64,000 nucleotides of DNA from Roseateles puraquae (lineage in GTDB: Bacteria > Pseudomonadota > Gammaproteobacteria > Burkholderiales > Burkholderiaceae_C). The notes under the pieces are model-generated. The model had not been told where the DNA came from, did not search any database, and saw nothing but the letters and a program-made list of their open reading frames with translations. The translations under genes were made by a program, and so were the position numbers. Positions 7,170 through 63,987 of the stretch are shown here, piece by piece; position 1 is the stretch's first letter; each line of letters starts with the position of its first letter. The stretch lies in the NCBI RefSeq assembly GCF_002205845.1, contig NZ_NISI01000002.1:186001-250000 (forward strand), written 5' to 3'.

Positions 7170-8162
7170 ATGCCCACCTTGAACCCACCGCTTGCCTTCG
7201 CGATCCAGCGCGTTTGCTTCGATGAGCATTACCAGCCGTCTGACAGCACGCGCATCACCACCAACTTCGCTAATCTGGCCCGCGGGGCCAAACGTCAGGA
7301 GAACCTGCGCAATGCGCTGAAGATGATCAACAACCGCTTCAACGCCTTGGCCCGCTGGGACAACCCCGGCGCCGACCGCTACGCCGTCGAGCTCGAGATC
7401 ATTTCCGTGCAGATGCGGTTTGGCGCTGATGGCCCCGGTGACGCCGTGCCGGCGATCGAGGTGCTGAAGACCCACATCCTCGACAAGCAGACCGGCAAGC
7501 GCACCGAGGGCATCGTCGGGAACAACTTGTCGTCCTACGTGCGGGACTACGACTTCAGCGTGCTGCTGCAGCGGCACAACCAGAACCGGACCGCATTCAG
7601 CATCCCCGACAACTTTGGCGACCTGCACGGCAAGCTCTTCCAGCACTTCGTGCATTCCGAGGCCTACCGGCAGAACTTCGCCAAGCCGCCGGTCATCTGC
7701 CTCAGCGTCTCGGACAACAAGACCTACCACCGGACCGAGAACCAGCATCCCGTGCTGGGCTTGGAGTACGTGCCCGAAGCGTCATCACTGACCGAGCGCT
7801 ATTTCAAGAAGATGGGTCTGCAGGTGCGCTTCTTCATGCCACCCAACAGCGTGGCGCCCCTGGCGTTCTACTTCTTTGGCGATCTGCTCAACGACTACAC
7901 GAACCTTGAGCTCATCAGCACCATCAGCACGATGGAGACGTTCCAGAAGATCTATCGGCCGGAGATCTACAACGCCAACTCCGTCGCGGGCGCCTGCTAC
8001 CGGCCGGACCTGAAGAACCCTGACCATTCGATCACCCAGATCGTCTACGACCGCGAGGAGCGCAGCCGCCTGGCCGTCGAGCAGGGCCAGTTTGCCGAGG
8101 AGCACTTCATCAAGCCCTACCAGGCGTTGCTTGAGCAGTGGACGGCCGGCCCCCTGCACTGA
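7170..8162 (+). CDS. mesX: MesX, DUF1852 partner of the folate-independent methionine synthase
   Basis: A 330-residue DUF1852 protein. In bacteria with the MesD type of core methionine synthase, MesX is required together with oxygen and is thought to be an oxygenase-like activity that supplies the methyl group. Family-typical stretches include FAIQRVCFDEHYQPS, TRITTNFANLARG and LSSYVRDYDFSVLLQRHNQN. The ATG at 7170 is chosen because it gives the family N-terminus; an upstream ATG at 7098 would lie inside the control region. No strong ribosome-binding site is visible. mesD follows after 42 bases, so the two form an operon. Confidence 0.9.
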   Translation: MPTLNPPLAFAIQRVCFDEHYQPSDSTRITTNFANLARGAKRQENLRNALKMINNRFNALARWDNPGADRYAVELEIISVQMRFGADGPGDAVPAIEVLKTHILDKQTGKRTEGIVGNNLSSYVRDYDFSVLLQRHNQNRTAFSIPDNFGDLHGKLFQHFVHSEAYRQNFAKPPVICLSVSDNKTYHRTENQHPVLGLEYVPEASSLTERYFKKMGLQVRFFMPPNSVAPLAFYFFGDLLNDYTNLELISTISTMETFQKIYRPEIYNANSVAGACYRPDLKNPDHSITQIVYDREERSRLAVEQGQFAEEHFIKPYQALLEQWTAGPLH

Positions 8163-24334: not shown

Positions 24335-24418
24335 CGCGGCACCGGCGTCGGCGGCGTGTCGACGCAGCCGCTGTCTGAGTTGCAGCGACGGCGCGTTGCA
24401 CCACAGATCGGTGAGCCG

Positions 24419-24499
24419 GTAGGTTGGGGTGAGCCCTGCGAACCCCAACGCGGTCGTCGTCGGGAAATGTTGGGGTTCACTGCTCTCACCCCAACCTAC
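24419..24499. repeat. REP-like palindromic element, copy 1
   Basis: An 81-base element with perfect 15-base inverted ends, GTAGGTTGGGGTGAG (24419-24433) and CTCACCCCAACCTAC (24485-24499). A second nested inverted pair, GAACCCCAAC and GTTGGGGTTC, lies inside. The GTAG head is the signature of REP sequences mobilised by RAYT (TnpA-REP) transposases. A second copy of equal length is at 24728-24808. Confidence 0.85.
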
Positions 24500-24727
24500 G
24501 CGCTGAAGTCGTAGTGGTTCGACATGTTGCTGATCGCCGCCAGCTCGCCGTTTTCAGCCGCCAGCTTTACGTAGGCGCGCGAGCGCGCCATCCAGTCGCG
24601 CACGGCCGGCTGCTCGGGCTGGGCCGTGGCGTTCAGCATCGCGTCGCCATACGGCCCTTCTTGCAGGAATGCCATGGCCGCGCCGGGCACGCCGGCCTAC
24701 GCGGCCCGTTCGGCGTACTGCAGCGCG
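24496..24727 (-). pseudogene. Gene relic caught between two REP-like elements
   Basis: A minus-strand coding remnant of about 75 codons: LQYAERAA, an in-frame TAG, then AGVPGAAMAFLQEGPYGDAM and ending YDFSA. It has high GC and a helical, Sel1/TPR-like look. Its 5' end is cut off by the second REP element and its stop codon (24496-24498, TAG) is supplied by the GTAG of the first. With an internal stop and no start it cannot make a normal protein. Confidence 0.6.
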
Positions 24728-24808
24728 GTAGGTTGGGGTGAGCCCTGCGAACCCCAACGCGGCTAACTTCGGGATATGTTGGGGTTCACGCGGTTTACCC
24801 CACCCTAC
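24728..24808. repeat. REP-like palindromic element, copy 2
   Basis: 81 bases, same order as copy 1: GTAGGTTGGGGTGAG at the left, CGAACCCCAACGCGG, GTTGGGGTTCACG and CCCCACCCTAC at the right. The first 37 bases are identical to copy 1; the central part and right end have diverged. It stands just outside the AT-rich block, so it may mark the left edge of the insertion site. Confidence 0.85.
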
Positions 24809-24919
24809 GGCCCTGCATGACCCGCCGGTGTTTCGATTCATCTTTGATGAAGCGCGATGGGTTAAGGGGGGCGAATCCCAACGAGGGTGCTCCCGGGGTA
24901 TATATTTGGGTTTCCGCGC

Positions 24920-27259
24920 TCACCCTCTTCTATTATGTCGAGGATTGGTTTTCCCCCAGTTGCCCCCGAAGAAGTTCAGAATATTCTGTAAATCTGACTT
25001 TAAGGGTAGCGTCTGCGAGGGTGGATTTGCTGCTAAGCGCGCGACTACCTTTTTTACGTCATCGACGGTTCGAATTTCATCGACATGGCGACGATTGTTG
25101 TCGTAGTTGTCAATGGATTCTGCGCATGGCGCGATAAAGTCGATTAAGTACCGCTCGTCTCCTGAAATCTTGTAAGCCCGAGCGTACAACTGTGCGAGTA
25201 CTAATGTGGCGCTGAAATAGGTTTGATTCTTCCTCTTTTGTGTGTCGAGTCGAACTTTTCGCGCATGACCAACACCCTCCGTTATCTCTTGAAGTTTGAT
25301 GCCAAACATCAGTTCTGCTTTTGCGCGCTGCAGCCAATAGTGAGGCTCTAGGGCGTAGATATCAGAAATTCCCTCGTAGATCCGCTTGATGAAGACTCGC
25401 GAGCGATGTCCTCCGGATATTTCATTAATCTTGTCAATTCGAAGCAGGTCTTTTGCATGGCTTGAGAATCCGTGCCGTTCAAGTCCCCGAATAACATCGC
25501 TGACAGCCTTGTGTGCGAATTCGTTCGATTTGACAAAATCATGAATTATCTTGAGCAGCCAAAGTGTGGCACTGCAGACCAGCACGCGGTCGCCGGTTTT
25601 GGTGATTTCTATTTCAAAAACTCGATCGTTCTTGGAGACAAAACCAGCAACATCGAAGTTCTCTGACACGCACGCAATTTGCTCAAGTGATGCTTTGCCG
25701 AAGGCAACCAGCAAAATTAGAACAAGATAAGTTTCCCCGCTAAAGCGTTGATTGAAAAGGGTGGATGTTGGCAACTGCCCTTTAAACTCTTCGTGGCATC
25801 GAAAGGCAAAGTTGATCAGATTTTCTTTATTGTTAATTATTGGAAGGCCGGACTTTGCGAGCTGTAGATTGAACTGCTTGATTTCTGTTGGATTCAAATA
25901 GTTAGAAATCTGAACCTCAGCGAATGGCACGGAACGCTCGCCAAGCTTGGCCCGAACCCGCTCCGCGTCACCAGCGCTTGCGCAGAGAACAAGCCGGCTG
26001 CTTGCTGCAAGCTTTGACTCAAGAACTTCTGTCAGTGATTCGGAATCTAAATGATTAGAATCGAAGACGAAAAGGCAATTCTCTAGGTTGTCAATTTGGC
26101 GCCCAATTAGCGGCGTGTAAGAGTCGCTTGAGCCGAAAAACTTGGCTCCAAACTCCTGCATAGCCAACATGAGTTGGAACAGAAATAGAGTCTTGCCACT
26201 GAATCGGCGCCCAGTGACGAGCAAGCAGTCATTATCTCGTAGAAGTCGGCGAGCGTCGTCGATTACGGTTCTACGGGCAAACGTTTCGCTTGCAACAGCG
26301 ACTCTGCGTTGGTCGACAAGTCTGTAAATGGGGCCGCCGTTTGCGATCAATTCGATAGCTGTGCCTCGCGGCAGAACAGCGTCGTCAAAAGCTAACTCCC
26401 TCACCGGGGCATCACGATGAATTCCCGACAAGGTGATGCGCAGCCAATGGTAGATCTCATCGTAGTTGTCAAAATATATTACTCGGCTGATTCCATAGTT
26501 TGCCAAATTCAGCCTGTCCTCCACTGAGGTCTTGCCCTTTTTTAAATAGATCGATTTCGAGAAGGGTGTATCTCGAGTGAGGTGGATTAGATCCAACTCC
26601 GCATCCAGGCTGCACCCGACGAACAAAAATGCGGAGGTTTTTGCTTGATCGGATAAGAACCCGAGGAGAGCCTTGTTGCTAGCGATGCTGTGAGCGTAGT
26701 CGCGCCAAGTGAAAATCAGGTTGGTATCTTCGGTGGCGACAAAATCCTTGATGTCCCCATGGATCTTGAAGAGACATTGATTGGCTGAAATATACTCTCG
26801 GGAAGTCACCTTGTTCGGACGAAGCTTTTCGTATTTATTGGTGGTGCGCTCGATTGCATCGTCAATGTTGAAGGTGAATATGTGAGGCCAATCCAAGTGA
26901 AGTATTGCGCGCTTGTCATGACTTGCGATTTCAACTTTGTAGAATATATTTCCAAGGAGCGTTTGGGCTTGCTTGGTTGATATGTAGTCTGGCGTCGACA
27001 ATAAGGAAAACGCGCTCTTTAGAGCTTTAATCGCGAGGATTTGTTGTCGCTGCTCCTCTGATATTCCCGGCTTGGAGCTTGCAATCTTTGTTATCTCCTT
27101 TGTGAGCTCCGTGGCATCCGGAACGCGACCTTTGGATGCCTTCTCGTTACGCGTGAATCCGCTGCCGAAGAAAGGTATGAGTCGTGAACCCTTAAATAGA
27201 GTCTGAATCTCCTGGGTAGCGCGCGGATCTGTAAAATGAATCTCATCAATCGATTTCAT
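24920..27259 (-). CDS. SIR2-STAND NTPase, probable antiphage NADase
   Basis: 779 residues in three parts. The N-terminal SIR2-like domain (about 20-275) has the NAD pocket FFGSGFT (30-36), the catalytic-type Asn131 in FTFNIDD, His168 in KIHGD, and FVGCSLD (213-219). A P-loop NTPase follows with Walker A GRRFSGKT (350-357), Walker B CLFVFD (395-400) and a sensor-like strand SRLVLCAS. The C-terminal 300 residues are helical and lack a named domain; they probably sense the trigger. SIR2-STAND proteins (Avs5-like) and related SIR2 proteins stop phage growth by destroying NAD+ after recognising a phage product. The gene is far more AT-rich than its neighbours, stands alone and fills the whole foreign block, all typical of a transferred defence gene. 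Confidence 0.85.
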   Translation of the reverse strand: MKSIDEIHFTDPRATQEIQTLFKGSRLIPFFGSGFTRNEKASKGRVPDATELTKEITKIASSKPGISEEQRQQILAIKALKSAFSLLSTPDYISTKQAQTLLGNIFYKVEIASHDKRAILHLDWPHIFTFNIDDAIERTTNKYEKLRPNKVTSREYISANQCLFKIHGDIKDFVATEDTNLIFTWRDYAHSIASNKALLGFLSDQAKTSAFLFVGCSLDAELDLIHLTRDTPFSKSIYLKKGKTSVEDRLNLANYGISRVIYFDNYDEIYHWLRITLSGIHRDAPVRELAFDDAVLPRGTAIELIANGGPIYRLVDQRRVAVASETFARRTVIDDARRLLRDNDCLLVTGRRFSGKTLFLFQLMLAMQEFGAKFFGSSDSYTPLIGRQIDNLENCLFVFDSNHLDSESLTEVLESKLAASSRLVLCASAGDAERVRAKLGERSVPFAEVQISNYLNPTEIKQFNLQLAKSGLPIINNKENLINFAFRCHEEFKGQLPTSTLFNQRFSGETYLVLILLVAFGKASLEQIACVSENFDVAGFVSKNDRVFEIEITKTGDRVLVCSATLWLLKIIHDFVKSNEFAHKAVSDVIRGLERHGFSSHAKDLLRIDKINEISGGHRSRVFIKRIYEGISDIYALEPHYWLQRAKAELMFGIKLQEITEGVGHARKVRLDTQKRKNQTYFSATLVLAQLYARAYKISGDERYLIDFIAPCAESIDNYDNNRRHVDEIRTVDDVKKVVARLAANPPSQTLPLKSDLQNILNFFGGNWGKTNPRHNRRG

Positions 27260-27349
27260 GCCATCCCCGTTTTAATGCGTCGCCTAGCGCTTGGGTTGGG
27301 TAGGCGAAGCGCTGGTTAATATTCTCGTCGGTCAGTTTTTTGTGCGATC

Positions 27350-27391
27350 ACGTCATGCTCATTCATTCGATATTCCGAATTGGCGTGACGT
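27350..27391. promoter_or_regulatory. Nested palindrome upstream of the SIR2-STAND gene
   Basis: Outer arms ACGTCA (27350-27355) and TGACGT (27386-27391) enclose an inner pair ATTCG (27365-27369) and CGAAT (27376-27380). It lies between the AcoR-like stop and the defence gene, about 90 bases before its start, inside the AT-rich DNA. It could be an operator, a terminator-like hairpin or an end of the inserted block. Confidence 0.35.
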
Positions 27392-27403
27392 TTAGTAGAC
27401 CAG

Positions 27404-29392
27404 TTAGCCCGCCCTCCTGTACAGCGTATTCCTACTAATCCCCAACCTCCTTGCCGCCTCCGACACATTCCCCCCGGTCGCGGCCAACACCTCGCGAATC
27501 CGCGCCGCCGTCAGCGCCCGCAAATCCTCCGGCGCATCGCCGTCCACGGCCGCCACGGCGGCGCTCGCCACGCGGCGCGATGAGCCGTCAGCCGCCCGCA
27601 CGGCATGGCCCCGATCACCAGCCGTCACCACACCTTCCCCAGGCACGGCTTCCATCGCAGCCCTGACCTCCTCCGGCCATTCCTCCGCCGTCACGACGTC
27701 CACCCCTTCGTCCAGCAACGCCACCGCCGTCCTCACCGCATTCGCCAGCTGCCGCACATTCCCCGGCCAGCGCAGCCGCTGGAGCGCAGCCATCACGGCG
27801 TCATCCACGCGCAGCGCGCGCTCGGGCGCCTCGGCCTGCAGCAGCTTGGTCACCAGCGCGGGGAGGTCGCTGCGCTCGCGCAGCGGGGGCAGGGTCAGGG
27901 TCAGGCCGTTGAGGCGGTAGAACAGGTCTTCGCGGAAGCGGCCGGCCGCCACTTCATCCGCCAGGCGGCGGTGGCTGGCGCAGATGAGGCGGAAGTCCAC
28001 CGCCACGGCCGCGCCGCCGCCCAGGGGCGTCACTTCTCGCGCTTCCAGCACGCGCAGCAGGCGGGCTTGCATGGCCAGCGGCATGTCGCCGATTTCGTCC
28101 AGGAAGAGGGTGCCGCCGTGGGCTTCGCGGATGCGACCCGGGGCGCCCTGGCGGCTGGCGCCGGTGAAGGCGCCGGGGCGGTAGCCGAAGAGTTCGGCTT
28201 CGATCAGCGTCTCGGGCAGGGCGGCGCAGTTGACGGCCACAAAGGGCTGGCTGCGGCGGGTGCTGCTGGCGTGCAGGGCGCGGGCGAGCACGTCTTTGCC
28301 AGTGCCGGTTTCGCCGTGCAGCAGCAGCGGGATGGCGGGTTTGTCGAGCACGCGGCGGGCGCGTTGCAGCGTGGCGCGGAAGGCGGCGTCGCCGGTGTCC
28401 AGCGCCGCCAGCGCGTCCAGCGGGCGCCAGGCGGTGTCGGTGGCGGGCGCGGCCGGCGCCGTGGCGCGCGGGCGGGGGCGCAGGGTGTGGCCGGGCTCCA
28501 CGCGCAGCCACAGCGGGGGCAGGCCGGCGGGGCGGGGCAGCGGGCGTGGGGCGCCGCCTTGGGCGAGCAGCTGGGGCAGGGTCAGGCCCAGCGCGCGCTC
28601 GGCGGTGGCGGCGCCGATGTCGCGGCGGGCCAGGCCCAGCAGTTCCAGCGCGGCGGTGGTGGCGCCCACCAGCCAGCCGTCTTCGCTGAGGGCGAGCAGG
28701 CCTTCGGTCACGGTGCCCAGGCCTTCAGCTTGCGCATGCAGGCGCACCACCAGCCCGGCCTGGAAGCGCGCGGTGAAGAGCTGGTGCTCCACCATGCGCG
28801 CGCCGCTGCGCACCAGGGCCAGGGTGTGGCGGTGGTAGCCGCGGCGGTCGCCGGAGATGTCGAGCACGCCGAGCAGCTGGCCGCCGGGGTCGGCAATCGG
28901 GGCGGCGGCGCAGGTCAAAAAGCCGTTGCGCTCCAGGTAGTGCTCGCCGCCGTGCACGACGGTGGGCTGGGCTTCAGCCAGCGCGGTGCCGATGGCGTTG
29001 GTGCCGCGCCATTGCTCGCTCCACAGCGCGCCGGGGCGCAGGGCCACGCGGGCGGCGCGGTCGGCAAAGTGGGCGTCGCCGGTGCTGTGCAGCAGCAGGC
29101 CTTGCGCATCGGCCAGCAGCACGAGGCTGTCGCTGCCCTGCACCTGTTCGTTCAGGAAGGCCATCACCGGCTTGGCGTGGGCCACCAGGCTGTGGCGGTG
29201 GTCCAGCGCGCGGGCCAGCTGGGCGGCGCTGGCATGCGGCGCGCCTTGCGGGCGGCCCAGCGGCTCCAGGCCGAACTCGCGGCAGCGGGCCCAGCTGGCG
29301 CGCAGGGCGTCGGGGATCAGGCCGGTGTCGACCTGGCCTTGCTCCAGCCATTGGCGGCGGGCGGTGCGCAGTGGGGTGGGCGCGGTGGGCAT
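27404..29392 (-). CDS. acoR: Sigma-54-dependent activator, AcoR-like
   Basis: 662 residues. An N-terminal GAF domain (about 70-215, with [13 protein letters not shown] and [11 protein letters not shown]) and a PAS-like region precede an AAA+ domain with Walker A GETGTGKD, the sigma-54 contact loop GAFTGA and Walker [10 protein letters not shown] Fis-type helix-turn-helix ends the protein ([20 protein letters not shown]). This is the layout of AcoR, which activates acetoin/acetaldehyde catabolism. Its divergent neighbours, an aldehyde dehydrogenase with a sigma-54 promoter and DUF779, are the likely targets. Its stop codon abuts the AT-rich block. Confidence 0.9.
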
Positions 29393-58839: not shown

Positions 58840-61800
58840 ATGCCTACGAACTCCACCCGCTTCAAACCCGCTCGCAAACCCATCGCGATTGCAGTGGTCG
58901 GTTTGATCCTGGCGCAGCAAAACGCGCTCGCCCAAACCCAGGCCCCGGAAACCAAGCCCGCCACCACGGCTGAAACTCCCGCGCCCAAGACCGACAACCC
59001 GCAGAAACTCGAAACGGTGGTCGTCACCTCGGGTTCGCGCATCAAGCGTGACAACTACAGCAGCACCGCCCCGCTGCTGGTGGTGAAGACCGAAGACGCT
59101 GCGCTGGCTGGCTACAGCTCGACCGCCCAGGTGCTGCAGGGCACGGCGGTGACCGGCGGCCAGGGCCAGATCAACAACGCCTTCGGCGGCTACGTCACCG
59201 ACGGCGGCCCCGGCGCCAACACCATCGGCCTGCGCGGCTTCGCCCCGACCCGCTCGCTGGTGCTGCTGAACGGCCGCCGCATGTCGCCCTCGGGCACGCG
59301 CGGCTCGGTCGGTGCCGCTGACCTGAACACCCTGCCGAACTCCATCGTCGACCGCATCGAAGTGCTGAAGGACGGGGCGTCCTCCATCTACGGCTCTGAC
59401 GCCGTGGCCGGTGTGATCAACATCATCACCAAGAAGGACCTGACCTCCATCCAGGTGGACGGCTCGGCCTCCCGCACGGTGGACGGCGGCGGCAACGCCT
59501 ACAACTTCTCGCTGGCCGGCGGCTTCGTCACCGACCGCACCCGTTTCCTGGCGTCGTACAACTACAACGCCATCACCGGCATGACGCTGGCCCAGCGCGA
59601 CTGGACCACCTGCAACACCGACTACCGCCGCACCAGCGTGAACGGCGTGGTGGGTGACTGGGGCAGCGCCGACACCATCGACCCGCTGACCGGCAAGCCC
59701 AAGTGCTACCCCATCACCGGCACGGGCTCCAACGGCGTGACGATCAACACCATCGGCACGAACACCCTGACCGGCGTGCCCGCCGTGGGCGCCACCGGCA
59801 CCAGCTTCAACCGCTGGCGTCCGAACTCCTCCGTCTCGACCGGCCTCGTGGGCTTCGAAGGCGTGGGCGGCGGCCAGACCACCAACACCAACATCCGCGA
59901 CACCTTCGACCCGCGTACGCTGAACCGCACGCTGTACTCGCCGGTGCGCAACCACAACATCTACGCCCAGGGCGGCGTGGACCTGGGTGTGCTGGGTGAT
60001 GCCGAGCTGTACTACGAAGTGCTGCTGAACCGCCGCGAGTCCTCGCAGGTTGGTTACCGCCAGCTGTCGCTGGACTACATCAAGGGCAGCCCGCTGATCC
60101 CCGCCAACCTGGCAGGCAGCACCTTCTCGGGCCCGGTGAACACCAGCAACGGCCAGAACGTCGGCGTGCGTGCCTTCATCGGCTTCGGCAACGACTACAG
60201 CAGCCAGAGCGTGGACTTCGTCCGCACGGCCGTCGGCCTGCGCGGCGCCATCCCGGCCTTCAGCTCGTGGGACTACGACGTGTCGTGGACGCACGCTGAA
60301 AGCCGCGGCTCCTACGCCCAGCAGTCGTTCCTGACCGACCGTCTGGCCAACAGCCTGAACGTCGTGGCCAGCGGCAGCGGCTTCGCTTGCGCCAACACGT
60401 CGGCCACCGGCTGCGTGGCGGCACCCCGCCTGACCTCGGCCGTCATCGGCGGCCAGCTGCCCCAGGCCTGGGTCGACTACGTGTGGCAGACCGTCACCGG
60501 CATGACCAAGTACAAGGAAGACGTGGTCACGGGTTCCGTCACGGGTTCGCTGTTCAAGCTGCCCTACGGCGATGTGAAGGGCGCCTTCGGTGCCGAGTTC
60601 CGCAAGAACAAGATCGACGACACCCCGTCGCTGGACTCGCAGAACAACAACCTCTACAACCTGACCTCCTCCGCCCCGACCCGCGGCAGCGACCAGGCCA
60701 CCGACTTCTTCGGCGAAATCGAAGTGCCGGTGCTGAAGAACCTGCCCCTGGCCAAGGAACTGACGGTCAACGCCTCCACGCGCTACGCCGACTACAAGTC
60801 CTACGGCTCTGACTCCACCTACAAGTTCGGCGCCATCTGGGCCCCGGCCAGCTGGATCACGCTGCGTGGCTCCAACGGCACGTCCTACCGCGCACCGGCC
60901 CTGTACGAGCAGTTCCTGGGTGCCACCACCGGCTTCCTGAGCAACCAGAACGACCCCTGCAACAACTGGGACAACCCCGCCCAGGCTGGCACGCCGCGCG
61001 CGGTCAACTGCAAGTCCGAAGGTCTGCCGGCCGGCTTCCAGGCCACGTCCAGCATCACCGTCGTCAACTCCGGCGGCCGTGCGGCCGGCCTGAAGGCTGA
61101 AACCTCGAAGAACGCCTCCTGGGGCGTGGTGCTGCAGCCCGAGCTGCCCACCGGCTGGGGTACGGTCTCTCTGGCGGTGGACCGCTTCGACCTGGTCGTC
61201 GACAACGGCGTCTCGCGCGCCGGCACGGCCAACATCCTGCAGCGTTGCTACGACAGCCCGGGCTTCCGCCAGGCCGGTGGCTTCTGCCGCCTGGTCGATG
61301 CTCGCAACACGACCTCGAACGCGCTGACCGTCAACGACAGCTACGTCAACCTGGCGACCGACATCGCCCGTGGCTTCGACTACACGGCCCAGTACACGAA
61401 CGAGATCGGCTCCGGCAAGCTGAAGATCGACCTGACGGTGACCGAGTACCGCTCGCAGGCCTACAAGCTGTTCGCGGACGATGCGCTGGATGACAACAAC
61501 GGCAACGTCGGCACGCCGAAGTGGTCCGGCCAGCTGGACGTGAAGTACAACCTCAAGAACTGGGGCGCGTACTACAGCCTGGAGTGGGTCGACAAGACCT
61601 CCAGCTACGCCTACTACGGCGAAGATCCGGCCACCAGCCGCTTCAAGCTGAACACCCCGAGCTACTTCCTGCACTCGGCCTCGGTCTCGTACAACGACTC
61701 GGTCAACAAGTGGAAGGCCACCATCGGCGTTCGCAACCTGTTCGACAAGAAGCCCCCGGTGATCTCCTCCGGTGTCTACAACCGCGTGGGCAATGCGCCC

Positions 61801-61863
61801 CTGTACAGCGGCTATGACTACCTGGGCCGTCGCCTGTTCGTGAACGTCTCCAAGACGTTCTGA
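58840..61863 (+). CDS. Large TonB-dependent outer-membrane receptor
   Basis: 1007 residues: signal peptide (AIAVVGLILAQQNALAQ), a Pro/Thr/Lys-rich spacer, TonB box QKLETVVVTSGSRIKRDN, a plug (about 60-190 with RSLVLLNGRRMSP and VEVLKDGASSIYGSDAVAG) and a large barrel ending VSKTF. The size and plug type resemble Caulobacter/Massilia-like receptors that take up peptides, plant polymers or complex nutrients. Start ATG at 58840 gives the signal peptide; an earlier ATG at 58780 does not. A terminator and a secreted peptidase gene follow. Confidence 0.92.
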   Translation: MPTNSTRFKPARKPIAIAVVGLILAQQNALAQTQAPETKPATTAETPAPKTDNPQKLETVVVTSGSRIKRDNYSSTAPLLVVKTEDAALAGYSSTAQVLQGTAVTGGQGQINNAFGGYVTDGGPGANTIGLRGFAPTRSLVLLNGRRMSPSGTRGSVGAADLNTLPNSIVDRIEVLKDGASSIYGSDAVAGVINIITKKDLTSIQVDGSASRTVDGGGNAYNFSLAGGFVTDRTRFLASYNYNAITGMTLAQRDWTTCNTDYRRTSVNGVVGDWGSADTIDPLTGKPKCYPITGTGSNGVTINTIGTNTLTGVPAVGATGTSFNRWRPNSSVSTGLVGFEGVGGGQTTNTNIRDTFDPRTLNRTLYSPVRNHNIYAQGGVDLGVLGDAELYYEVLLNRRESSQVGYRQLSLDYIKGSPLIPANLAGSTFSGPVNTSNGQNVGVRAFIGFGNDYSSQSVDFVRTAVGLRGAIPAFSSWDYDVSWTHAESRGSYAQQSFLTDRLANSLNVVASGSGFACANTSATGCVAAPRLTSAVIGGQLPQAWVDYVWQTVTGMTKYKEDVVTGSVTGSLFKLPYGDVKGAFGAEFRKNKIDDTPSLDSQNNNLYNLTSSAPTRGSDQATDFFGEIEVPVLKNLPLAKELTVNASTRYADYKSYGSDSTYKFGAIWAPASWITLRGSNGTSYRAPALYEQFLGATTGFLSNQNDPCNNWDNPAQAGTPRAVNCKSEGLPAGFQATSSITVVNSGGRAAGLKAETSKNASWGVVLQPELPTGWGTVSLAVDRFDLVVDNGVSRAGTANILQRCYDSPGFRQAGGFCRLVDARNTTSNALTVNDSYVNLATDIARGFDYTAQYTNEIGSGKLKIDLTVTEYRSQAYKLFADDALDDNNGNVGTPKWSGQLDVKYNLKNWGAYYSLEWVDKTSSYAYYGEDPATSRFKLNTPSYFLHSASVSYNDSVNKWKATIGVRNLFDKKPPVISSGVYNRVGNAPLYSGYDYLGRRLFVNVSKTF

Positions 61864-61881
61864 TCGCGTAAGTGATCCAAT

Positions 61882-61915
61882 GCCCTGGCAGCTTCGGTTG
61901 CCGGGGCTTTTTTTT
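61882..61915 (+). terminator. Rho-independent terminator after the TonB receptor gene
   Basis: Stem GCCCTGGCA (61882-61890) with TGCCGGGGC (61899-61907), one G-T pair, followed by eight T. It separates the receptor from the peptidase gene whose ATG is only 15 bases after, so peptidase expression must use partial read-through or an overlapping promoter. Confidence 0.9.
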
Positions 61916-61929
61916 GACGTGAGACTCCC

Positions 61930-63987
61930 ATGAAGAGCTATTTCAGGCCGGCAGGCCAGGCGCTGGTGATCGCCAGCGCAGCCCTGCTGTACAACTTCGC
62001 GGTGGCCGCCGAGGCGCCGCCGATCCGCGTCCCCACGGTGGAGACGCTGGCCCAGTTCCCGGGCATGACGGGCTTTCGCATCTCGCCGGACGGCAAGCAC
62101 ATGCTGGCCATCCAGAGCCAAGGCGACACCCGCAACATCCTGGTGTGGAAACTGGCCGACCTCGCCGCCAGGCCCACGGTCATCGGTTCCAAGAACATGC
62201 AGATCAGCAGTGCGTCGTTCCTGAAGAACGACATGCTGCAGGTCACCATGACCCAGCCCTACGACTGGCGCGATGACGAGATCACCAAGACCTTCATCAG
62301 CAAGCTGCTGTTCACCGACCTGGAAGGCAAGAACTGGATCGAGCCGACCGTGTCGGGCGAGGTAGCCCGCTCCGAAGCCGCCAAGCGCGCAGCCGCGCTG
62401 TCCAACCCGCGGGTGATCAACCGCCTGCTGGCCGACCCCGACAACGTCATCATCCAGAGCGGCTCCATCGAAGGCCGCGACATCTACCGCTACAACCTGC
62501 GCACCAACAAGACCTCGCGCATCCTGCGGCTGGGTGAGTCCGACAACACCGTTCGCGTGAACAACGCCGGGCAGGCCTGGGCGAAGTCGCGTGCGGGCAT
62601 CGATGCCACCGGCCCATTCATCGCGATCGACTTCCGCAGCCCTGACGGCGAATGGGTCGAGCATTTCCGCAGCTATGTGAAGGACCGCGACATCGTGGAC
62701 GTGGTCGCGCCCGGCCTGAAGCCCGGTACGGCCATCGTGCGAAGCAACGTCGGCCGCGAGTTCACGGCGCTGTACGAGTACGACATCGCCGCCCGCAAGA
62801 TGGGCGCACCGGTGTTCGAGCACAAGTATTTCGATGCCAGCGGCGTGCGCAGCTTCCGTGACGACGACGCACCTCGCGAGGAGGGCTTCGATGGCTACGT
62901 CTTCGAAGGCCACCTCGGCGGCGACGAGCACTGGGAGAACCCCAAGCTGGAGGCCACCCTGCGCGGCGTCGCCCAGGCGCTGGGCATCAAGGAGATCGAC
63001 CAGGAACTGGTGAATATCGGCAGCGGTGAGCGCGCCACCATCAAGTCACTCGATGGCGTGCAGGTGCGACTGGTGTCGTATGTGGGGGGCGAGACGCCGA
63101 CCTACCTGATCCGCGTCAGCGGCCTGACCTACCCGACCGAGCACTACCTGCTGCGCGGCCAAGCCATTCAACTGCTGGCCAAGGAGTACCCGGACGTCGA
63201 CAAGCGCTCGCTCGGCACGGCCCGCTTCGTGTACTACAAGGCGCGCGACGGCCTGACCATCCCGGCCTACCTCACGGTGCCGAACGCGCAGCTGTGCGGC
63301 CCGGGCCCCTACTCGGCCGTCATCCATCCTCACGGCGGCCCGTGGGCGCGTGACACCATGGACTACGACCGCTCCGGCTGGGTGCCGCTGCTGGTGTCGC
63401 AGTGCCGGGTCGTGCTGCAGCCGCAGTTCCGCGGCTCGGCCGGCTGGGGTCGTGCCCTGTGGTACGCAGGCGACCGCGAGTGGGGCCAGAAGATGCAGGA
63501 CGACAAGGATGACGGCGCCAAGTGGCTGGTCAGCGAGAAGCTGGCCGACCCCAAGCGCATCGCCATGTTCGGCTTCTCTTACGGCGGCTACTCGGCCTTT
63601 GCCGCGGCGGTGCGGCCCAACGGGCTGTACAAGTGCGCGATCGCCGGCGCGGGCGTGTCGGACATCGAGCGCATCGGCGCGCGGCTGTTCACCAACCCGT
63701 TCTTCCGCTCCGCGCAGGAGCCCACGATGCGCGGTCTGAATCCGCTGGCCCAGGCCGACAAGATCCAGATCCCGATCATGGTCTACCACGGCGACCGCGA
63801 CCAGACCGTGCCGCTGATGCAGTCCGAGCTGTTCGTGGACAAGGCCAAGGCCGCCGGCAAGCCGGTCGAGTACCACGTGCTCAACGACTATGCCCACGGC
63901 CCGGCCTGGACGCGCAAGGTCAACATCGACCAGCTCAACCTGATCAGCAACTACCTGGGCAAGGGCTGCGGTGGTGGCGGCCTGTGA
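61930..63987 (+). CDS. Secreted S9-family prolyl-oligopeptidase-like peptidase
   Basis: 685 residues with a signal peptide (ALLYNFAVAA). An N-terminal beta-propeller-like half (about 30-420) is followed by an alpha/beta hydrolase with the nucleophile in MFGFSYGGYSAF, Asp in YHGDRDQTVP and His in DYAHGPAW. It should cleave short peptides in the periplasm or outside the cell. It directly follows a TonB receptor, hinting at joint nutrient use. The peptidase ends 13 bases before the window edge. Confidence 0.92.
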   Translation: MKSYFRPAGQALVIASAALLYNFAVAAEAPPIRVPTVETLAQFPGMTGFRISPDGKHMLAIQSQGDTRNILVWKLADLAARPTVIGSKNMQISSASFLKNDMLQVTMTQPYDWRDDEITKTFISKLLFTDLEGKNWIEPTVSGEVARSEAAKRAAALSNPRVINRLLADPDNVIIQSGSIEGRDIYRYNLRTNKTSRILRLGESDNTVRVNNAGQAWAKSRAGIDATGPFIAIDFRSPDGEWVEHFRSYVKDRDIVDVVAPGLKPGTAIVRSNVGREFTALYEYDIAARKMGAPVFEHKYFDASGVRSFRDDDAPREEGFDGYVFEGHLGGDEHWENPKLEATLRGVAQALGIKEIDQELVNIGSGERATIKSLDGVQVRLVSYVGGETPTYLIRVSGLTYPTEHYLLRGQAIQLLAKEYPDVDKRSLGTARFVYYKARDGLTIPAYLTVPNAQLCGPGPYSAVIHPHGGPWARDTMDYDRSGWVPLLVSQCRVVLQPQFRGSAGWGRALWYAGDREWGQKMQDDKDDGAKWLVSEKLADPKRIAMFGFSYGGYSAFAAAVRPNGLYKCAIAGAGVSDIERIGARLFTNPFFRSAQEPTMRGLNPLAQADKIQIPIMVYHGDRDQTVPLMQSELFVDKAKAAGKPVEYHVLNDYAHGPAWTRKVNIDQLNLISNYLGKGCGGGGL

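Follow-up and report, generated by a model that had tools for sequence, protein, structure and literature searches.

A probable Avs5 antiphage gene in an AT-rich block next to acoR in Roseateles puraquae, with other cargo at the same site in sister species

Described Avs5 systems and the locus

Filamentation reportedly activates bacterial Avs5, in work said to come from Wang et al. in 2025. Filament activation of Avs5 is likewise discussed in PMC12700824, and PMC12931631 (Mol Cell 2026) describes a phage protein, JADA, that triggers three Avs5 clades. According to the latter source, infection makes NAD+ drop in the case of the clade 1 protein, in which the Sir2 residues, the Walker A motif and the C-terminal helices are needed, and the clade 3 protein PaAvs5, which may have several triggers, stops unrelated phages. 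One Avs5 chain of 769 aa is available under two PDB entries of the same sequence, 9nah and 9nc9 (the latter entitled ‘Helical assembly of AVAST5 filament’), and a further entry, 9jap (‘Helical structure of EfAvs5(SIR2-STAND)’), represents EfAvs5, which belongs to clade 3 in PMC12931631.

The window, by which we mean the whole stretch of 64,000 nucleotides analysed here, carries a gene whose product probably has the same Sir2 / nSTAND / C-terminal repeat layout as the P. aeruginosa Avs5 proteins of clades 1-3 (PMC12931631). The features of the locus are as follows.

24417-24500 and 24726-24809, no strand: a pair of imperfect palindromic repeats, each of 84 nt and 85% alike, lying at the block’s distal edge
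24850-27403: the avs5 block, on the 3’ side of acoR
24920..27259, minus strand: avs5, encoding a predicted SIR2-STAND (AVAST type 5) protein of 779 aa (open reading frame; NF041814; PADLOC; PDB 9nah_A)
26390..27259, minus strand: predicted SIR2 NADase domain, residues 1-290, an approximate boundary (Pfam SIR2_2, invariant residues, structural matches)
25910..26269, minus strand: putative NTPase core of STAND type, spanning residues 331-450 (with the Walker A motif and a Walker B-like FVFDS at 397-401)
24923..25909, minus strand: C-terminal region, largely helical, the presumed phage sensor, residues 451-779 (Avs5 profile, relatives)
27404..29392, minus strand: acoR-like sigma54-dependent activator (name as in the earlier note, read by eye), co-directional with avs5 and immediately upstream of it, the fixed edge of the block

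Family membership, domains and fold

The gene is best explained as encoding an Avs5 (AVAST type 5) antiphage NADase, a reading that we hold to be very probable, with horizontal acquisition as the most likely origin and a mechanism that would follow by homology. The NCBIfam equivalog NF041814 (‘AVAST type 5 anti-phage protein Avs5’) scored 1263 bits (cut-off 1000), with residues 4-763 of the protein aligned to positions 1-763 of the 763 in the profile, and the PADLOC Avs5 model gave 1004 bits. Among PDB sequences, phmmer matched 9nah_A over residues 8-765 with 788 bits (E 1e-235). These matches support the view, put forward from the sequence in the earlier note, that this is a SIR2-STAND protein and probably a single-gene antiphage NADase, and their full length led us to reject a lone SIR2 protein of undescribed type. 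The Avs5 family is already described, and the window adds one member to it.

Relative to the solved chain 9nah/9nc9, the window protein is of similar length and keeps the motifs, but more than half of its residues differ (identity 45-46% by Foldseek and 40% over 691 residues by VIA-align), and it extends 14 residues, 766-779, beyond the match. EfAvs5 (9jap) was a structural match alone, at 15-16% identity, and phmmer against the PDB at E <= 1 returned no match to it, which places EfAvs5 on a more distant branch and the window protein nearer to 9nah. Besides Avs5, the only PADLOC models matched at E <= 1 were two for ThsA, at 22-25 bits; both were confined to SIR2 residues 104-224, and an assignment to ThsA (Thoeris) was rejected on that ground. 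ThsA, DSR2, SPARSA and KomBC are SIR2 NADases whose sensors differ from that of Avs5, and for ThsA, SPARSA and KomBC the partners differ too.

A scan of genome contigs for Avs5 gave five loci from 40 candidate stretches. Four encode full-length or nearly full-length relatives at 35-49% identity, in Superficieibacter, Paraburkholderia ferrariae, Xanthomonas nasturtii and a Deefgea MAG, and three of these pass the NF041814 cut-off (1172-1249 bits), with Deefgea below it at 702 bits; the fifth (L006), matched over SIR2 residues 18-218 alone at 22%, was left out of the alignment. The SIR2 part was matched by Pfam SIR2_2 over residues 126-219 (42 bits, cut-off 24.5), whereas nSTAND3 reached 20.1 bits, below its cut-off of 27.2. 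The SIR2 motifs GSGFT (32-36), TFNIDD (129-134, with Asn131), KIHGD (165-169) and GCSLD (215-219) and the Walker A motif GRRFSGKT (350-357) lie where the earlier note had placed them, with the correction that the catalytic histidine is residue 167, not 168. Among the residues invariant in all five aligned Avs5 sequences are G32, G34, F35, T36, N131, D133, H167, G168, C216, S217, G350, G355, K356, D400, Y641, W642 and Q644, as is the whole string GRRFSGK; thus the N-terminal SIR2 domain keeps both the catalytic Asn (N131) and the HG motif (H167-G168). In PaAvs5-1, by contrast, NG stands in place of HG (PMC12931631). A conserved HYWLQ motif is also intact in the window protein, and by eye its Y641, W642 and Q644 may be the counterparts of a Tyr, a Trp and a Gln that are conserved close to where the repeats begin in PMC12931631.

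The earlier note had left the C-terminus unassigned and its sensor region without a family, which was not borne out. We can assign the presumed sensor to Avs5 because the profile extends to residue 763 and because residues 616-765 share 42% identity, over 149 positions, with L002, which is itself closely related to the solved Avs5 chain (1589.8 bits). Identity to the four relatives is 31-50% over residues 451-615 and 616-765, with 451-615 among the least conserved parts of the protein (31-36%). In the structure model, residues 565-726 are all helix, with block pLDDT values of 68-92 over 561-710. The model as a whole is weak, built on a five-sequence alignment with a mean pLDDT of 65.5, values below 50 around the catalytic histidine (residues 135-164 and 166-197) and an rmsd to 9nc9 of more than 20 Å over the chain, and it served solely for comparison with solved folds. 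For the SIR2 part, the matches listed by VIA-align (50 entries, one row each, families not among them being no counter-evidence) were mostly defence proteins: Avs5, ThsA, KomBC, SPARSA and DSR2.

The SIR2 fold as such is common to deacetylases, and the structural matches listed for the SIR2 part include human FAM118B, so we weighed a role outside defence, for example as a regulatory deacetylase. Such a role is very improbable given a match to Avs5 at equivalog level, the predominance of defence proteins among the matches just listed and the patchy occurrence of the gene in the genomes sampled.

Mechanism and the candidate trigger JADA

By analogy with other Avs5 proteins, the window protein would most likely stay inactive up to the point where its C-terminal repeats are bound by a phage protein, such as a JADA-like one made early by nucleus-forming jumbo phages. 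The nucleotide-bound STAND core would then build a filament, the filament would switch on the SIR2 domain, and hydrolysis of NAD+ by SIR2 would abort the infection.

That JADA is the trigger here is plausible. Since phiKZ gp124 is the JADA orthologue according to PMC12931631, its 721-aa sequence was used as a tblastn query at E <= 1e-3 and matched 68 of 50,697 phage records, all of them Pseudomonas phages. With the Noxifer homologue as query and E <= 1, 70 records were matched: 68 from Pseudomonas phages, one from Burkholderia phage FLC9 (E 7e-4) and one from a phage of Xanthomonas (E 0.01). The FLC9 protein, gp89 (687 aa; L084 4089-6152), is annotated as hypothetical and proved to be a divergent JADA homologue in a phage whose host is Burkholderia glumae: a four-protein JADA profile aligned to it with an hhalign probability of 99.7% and an hmmsearch E of 1e-29, while none of 319 further ORFs did better than E 1.1, with the first 50 kb of BcepSaruman, a Burkholderia phage, used as a negative set. 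Furthermore, the gene immediately upstream of gp89 is gp90, with 30% identity to phiKZ gp123 (E 3e-85), a protein whose relatives are partly annotated as a subunit of the nvRNAP. The order of nvRNAP subunit and JADA genes is called invariant in PMC12931631, and gp90-gp89 in FLC9 has that order. A point against is that the nvRNAP subunit was found in four Burkholderia phage records, and a JADA match at E <= 1 in FLC9 alone. The evidence on gp89 shows that one or more jumbo phages infecting Burkholderia carry a JADA homologue, which makes it a more pointed question whether JADA can be sensed beyond Pseudomonas.

We give appreciable weight, somewhat short of even, to the alternative that a phage protein other than JADA triggers the window Avs5. 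The low conservation of residues 451-615 would fit it, as would the restriction of gp124 matches to Pseudomonas phages (68 of 68 records) and the broad protection given by some Avs5 proteins, exemplified in PMC12931631 by the action of the clade 3 PaAvs5 against unrelated phages. On the other hand, JADA activates Avs5 of three out of three clades tested in that source, and the Noxifer query does reach a Burkholderia jumbo phage, which keeps JADA the plausible candidate.

Origin of the block and variable cargo at acoR

The avs5 gene has a GC content of 47.7% (52.7% at third positions) in a window that has 70.4% outside the block, and in 500-bp intervals the GC of the window falls below 57% solely in the avs5 block. 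A laxer cut, 0.10 under the window mean, adds two small dips at 1251-1950 and 7551-8050; a milder dip was also seen at about 61000-62500. The open reading frame begins with ATG and runs through 779 codons free of internal stops, and the contrast in composition confirms what had been described as an AT-rich, foreign-looking block with one 779-residue protein. All four full-length relatives are AT-rich against their surroundings as well (GC 0.33 against 0.49-0.55, 0.45 against 0.58-0.62, 0.44 against 0.56-0.60 and 0.32 against 0.53-0.54). By eye, Vsr-like ORFs lie near avs5 in the Paraburkholderia and Xanthomonas loci (L003 and L004), and the Xanthomonas locus has an ORF resembling a DNA cytosine methyltransferase too, as in defence islands.

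Could the gene be a decayed or silent passenger, a family member by sequence with no function in this host? No promoter-like site stands out 5’ of the start codon (the three such sites of the region are at about shuffle level), and third positions at 52.7% GC, atypical in a window of 70%, may limit expression. We nevertheless regard a silent passenger as unlikely: 779 codons are open and the motifs invariant in five sequences are retained.

Avs5 is the sole match in its own genome (6.06 Mb in 43 contigs), and that genome is the only one of 60 relatives with it; no match was found in the 59 others, 19 congeners included. The gene is absent from the relatives searched, and the earlier expectation of foreign composition together with absence from relatives held. 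Sampling more broadly gave the same result: Avs5 above the cut-off occurred in 1/399 genomes of the order and 1/398 of the phylum, in both cases the genome studied here, with one partial match of 191 bits (G504) in the order sample. Avs5 is rare in this sample of the order, and its carrier here is a high-GC bacterium. By tblastn, no phage record and only three plasmid records, at 21.8-22.8% identity, were matched, and carriage of avs5 by a plasmid or phage was rejected on that result.

On one side, the block ends at the acoR stop codon (27404-27406). Congeneric acoR genes remain alignable almost to their ends, with divergence setting in at the last few codons, in cargo-free genomes too. On the other side lie the two palindromic repeats, which bear out only part of the ‘REP-like’ edge reported before: the palindromes are present, but at <= 3 mismatches their 31-nt core has no copy in the 6.06-Mb genome beyond these two, which at such stringency makes them a local repeat and leaves a dispersed REP family unsupported. 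The segment between them (24505-24720) appears by eye to hold a short remnant of a minus-strand coding gene. As for an RNA attachment site, no Rfam match at the gathering score was found in 20-32 kb, and there is no tRNA in the window.

Among 20 genomes of the genus, our own included, seven have an acoR orthologue (E <= 1e-280); of the others, four have an acoR relative at 48-51%, outside the block comparison, and in the remaining nine no match was found at E <= 1e-120. Five of the seven orthologues have an AT-rich block (500-bp GC < 57%) on their 3’ side, with none elsewhere in 176 kb. The block overlaps the end of acoR in four of the five and starts about 330 bp away in one. At the laxer cut (0.10 under the locus mean) the same five appear together with four smaller dips, two in the window and one each in L022 and L027. 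The cargo is different in all five; besides Avs5 in the window, it is as follows.

L022 8201-10600 (G005): a pair of genes encoding 319 and 169 aa, with no Pfam, PADLOC or NCBIfam match above cut-off
L024 6351-8600 (G016): a type V retron (PADLOC reverse transcriptase 342 bits, cold-shock protein 84 bits)
L025 10751-12550 (G018): a 217-aa protein, with no Pfam, PADLOC or NCBIfam match above cut-off
L026 6851-8550 (G008): a DUF4062 protein

The reverse transcriptase of the retron falls below the NCBIfam retron cut-offs. With Avs5 and the type V retron among the cargo, two of the five blocks hold defence genes of a recognised kind. In G019 and G012, acoR has no block next to it; in G012 a response regulator (by eye) lies within about 100 bp of acoR, and in G016 the stretch homologous to that of G012 begins about 2.8 kb further on, with the retron genes and an additional gene in between. 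Outside the genus, among the best 20 of 63 acoR matches, the lax threshold gave a block in one (L073), within 1.4 kb of acoR. In the same 20, the 57% threshold gave no block in 16, and the other four are loci of 59-65% mean GC, one of which (L071) has a 0.8 kb block reaching the end of acoR.

The presence of different foreign genes at the same acoR spot in sister species is mildly new and a modest addition; our literature search found no paper on acoR as an anti-phage hotspot. We propose tentatively, and with the balance somewhat against us, that small defence modules may be exchanged on the 3’ side of acoR; the unassigned cargo of G005, G018 and G008 might then represent undescribed antiphage systems and Avs5 one interchangeable occupant. 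The site offers a handful of genes that are candidates for a role in defence by their position, not by similarity.

In the blocks of the genus, where the profile scan covered the main cargo proteins, we noticed no integrase gene. A vehicle common to all cargo blocks was rejected: blastn among the seven downstream regions gave acoR, old flanks and one 30-nt match (90%, inverted) between G016 and G008, at the distal edge of the block in each. A 13-nt core resembling TTGAGACCTGACC (<= 2 mismatches) lies at a block edge in both G016 (L024 6407) and G018 (L025 10435) and at the two edges in G008 (L026 6955 and 8324), and was not found, at the same stringency, at the edges of the window’s own block or that of G005. 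The core was chosen post hoc, without a shuffled control, and has eight matches in 176 kb, four at edges and two in the cargo-free L027; as a clue to cargo movement it is a lead only. In G018 alone, the cargo lies between two inverted repeats, each about 330 bp long and 77% alike, which in L025 are some 173-503 and 2085-2387 bp beyond acoR.
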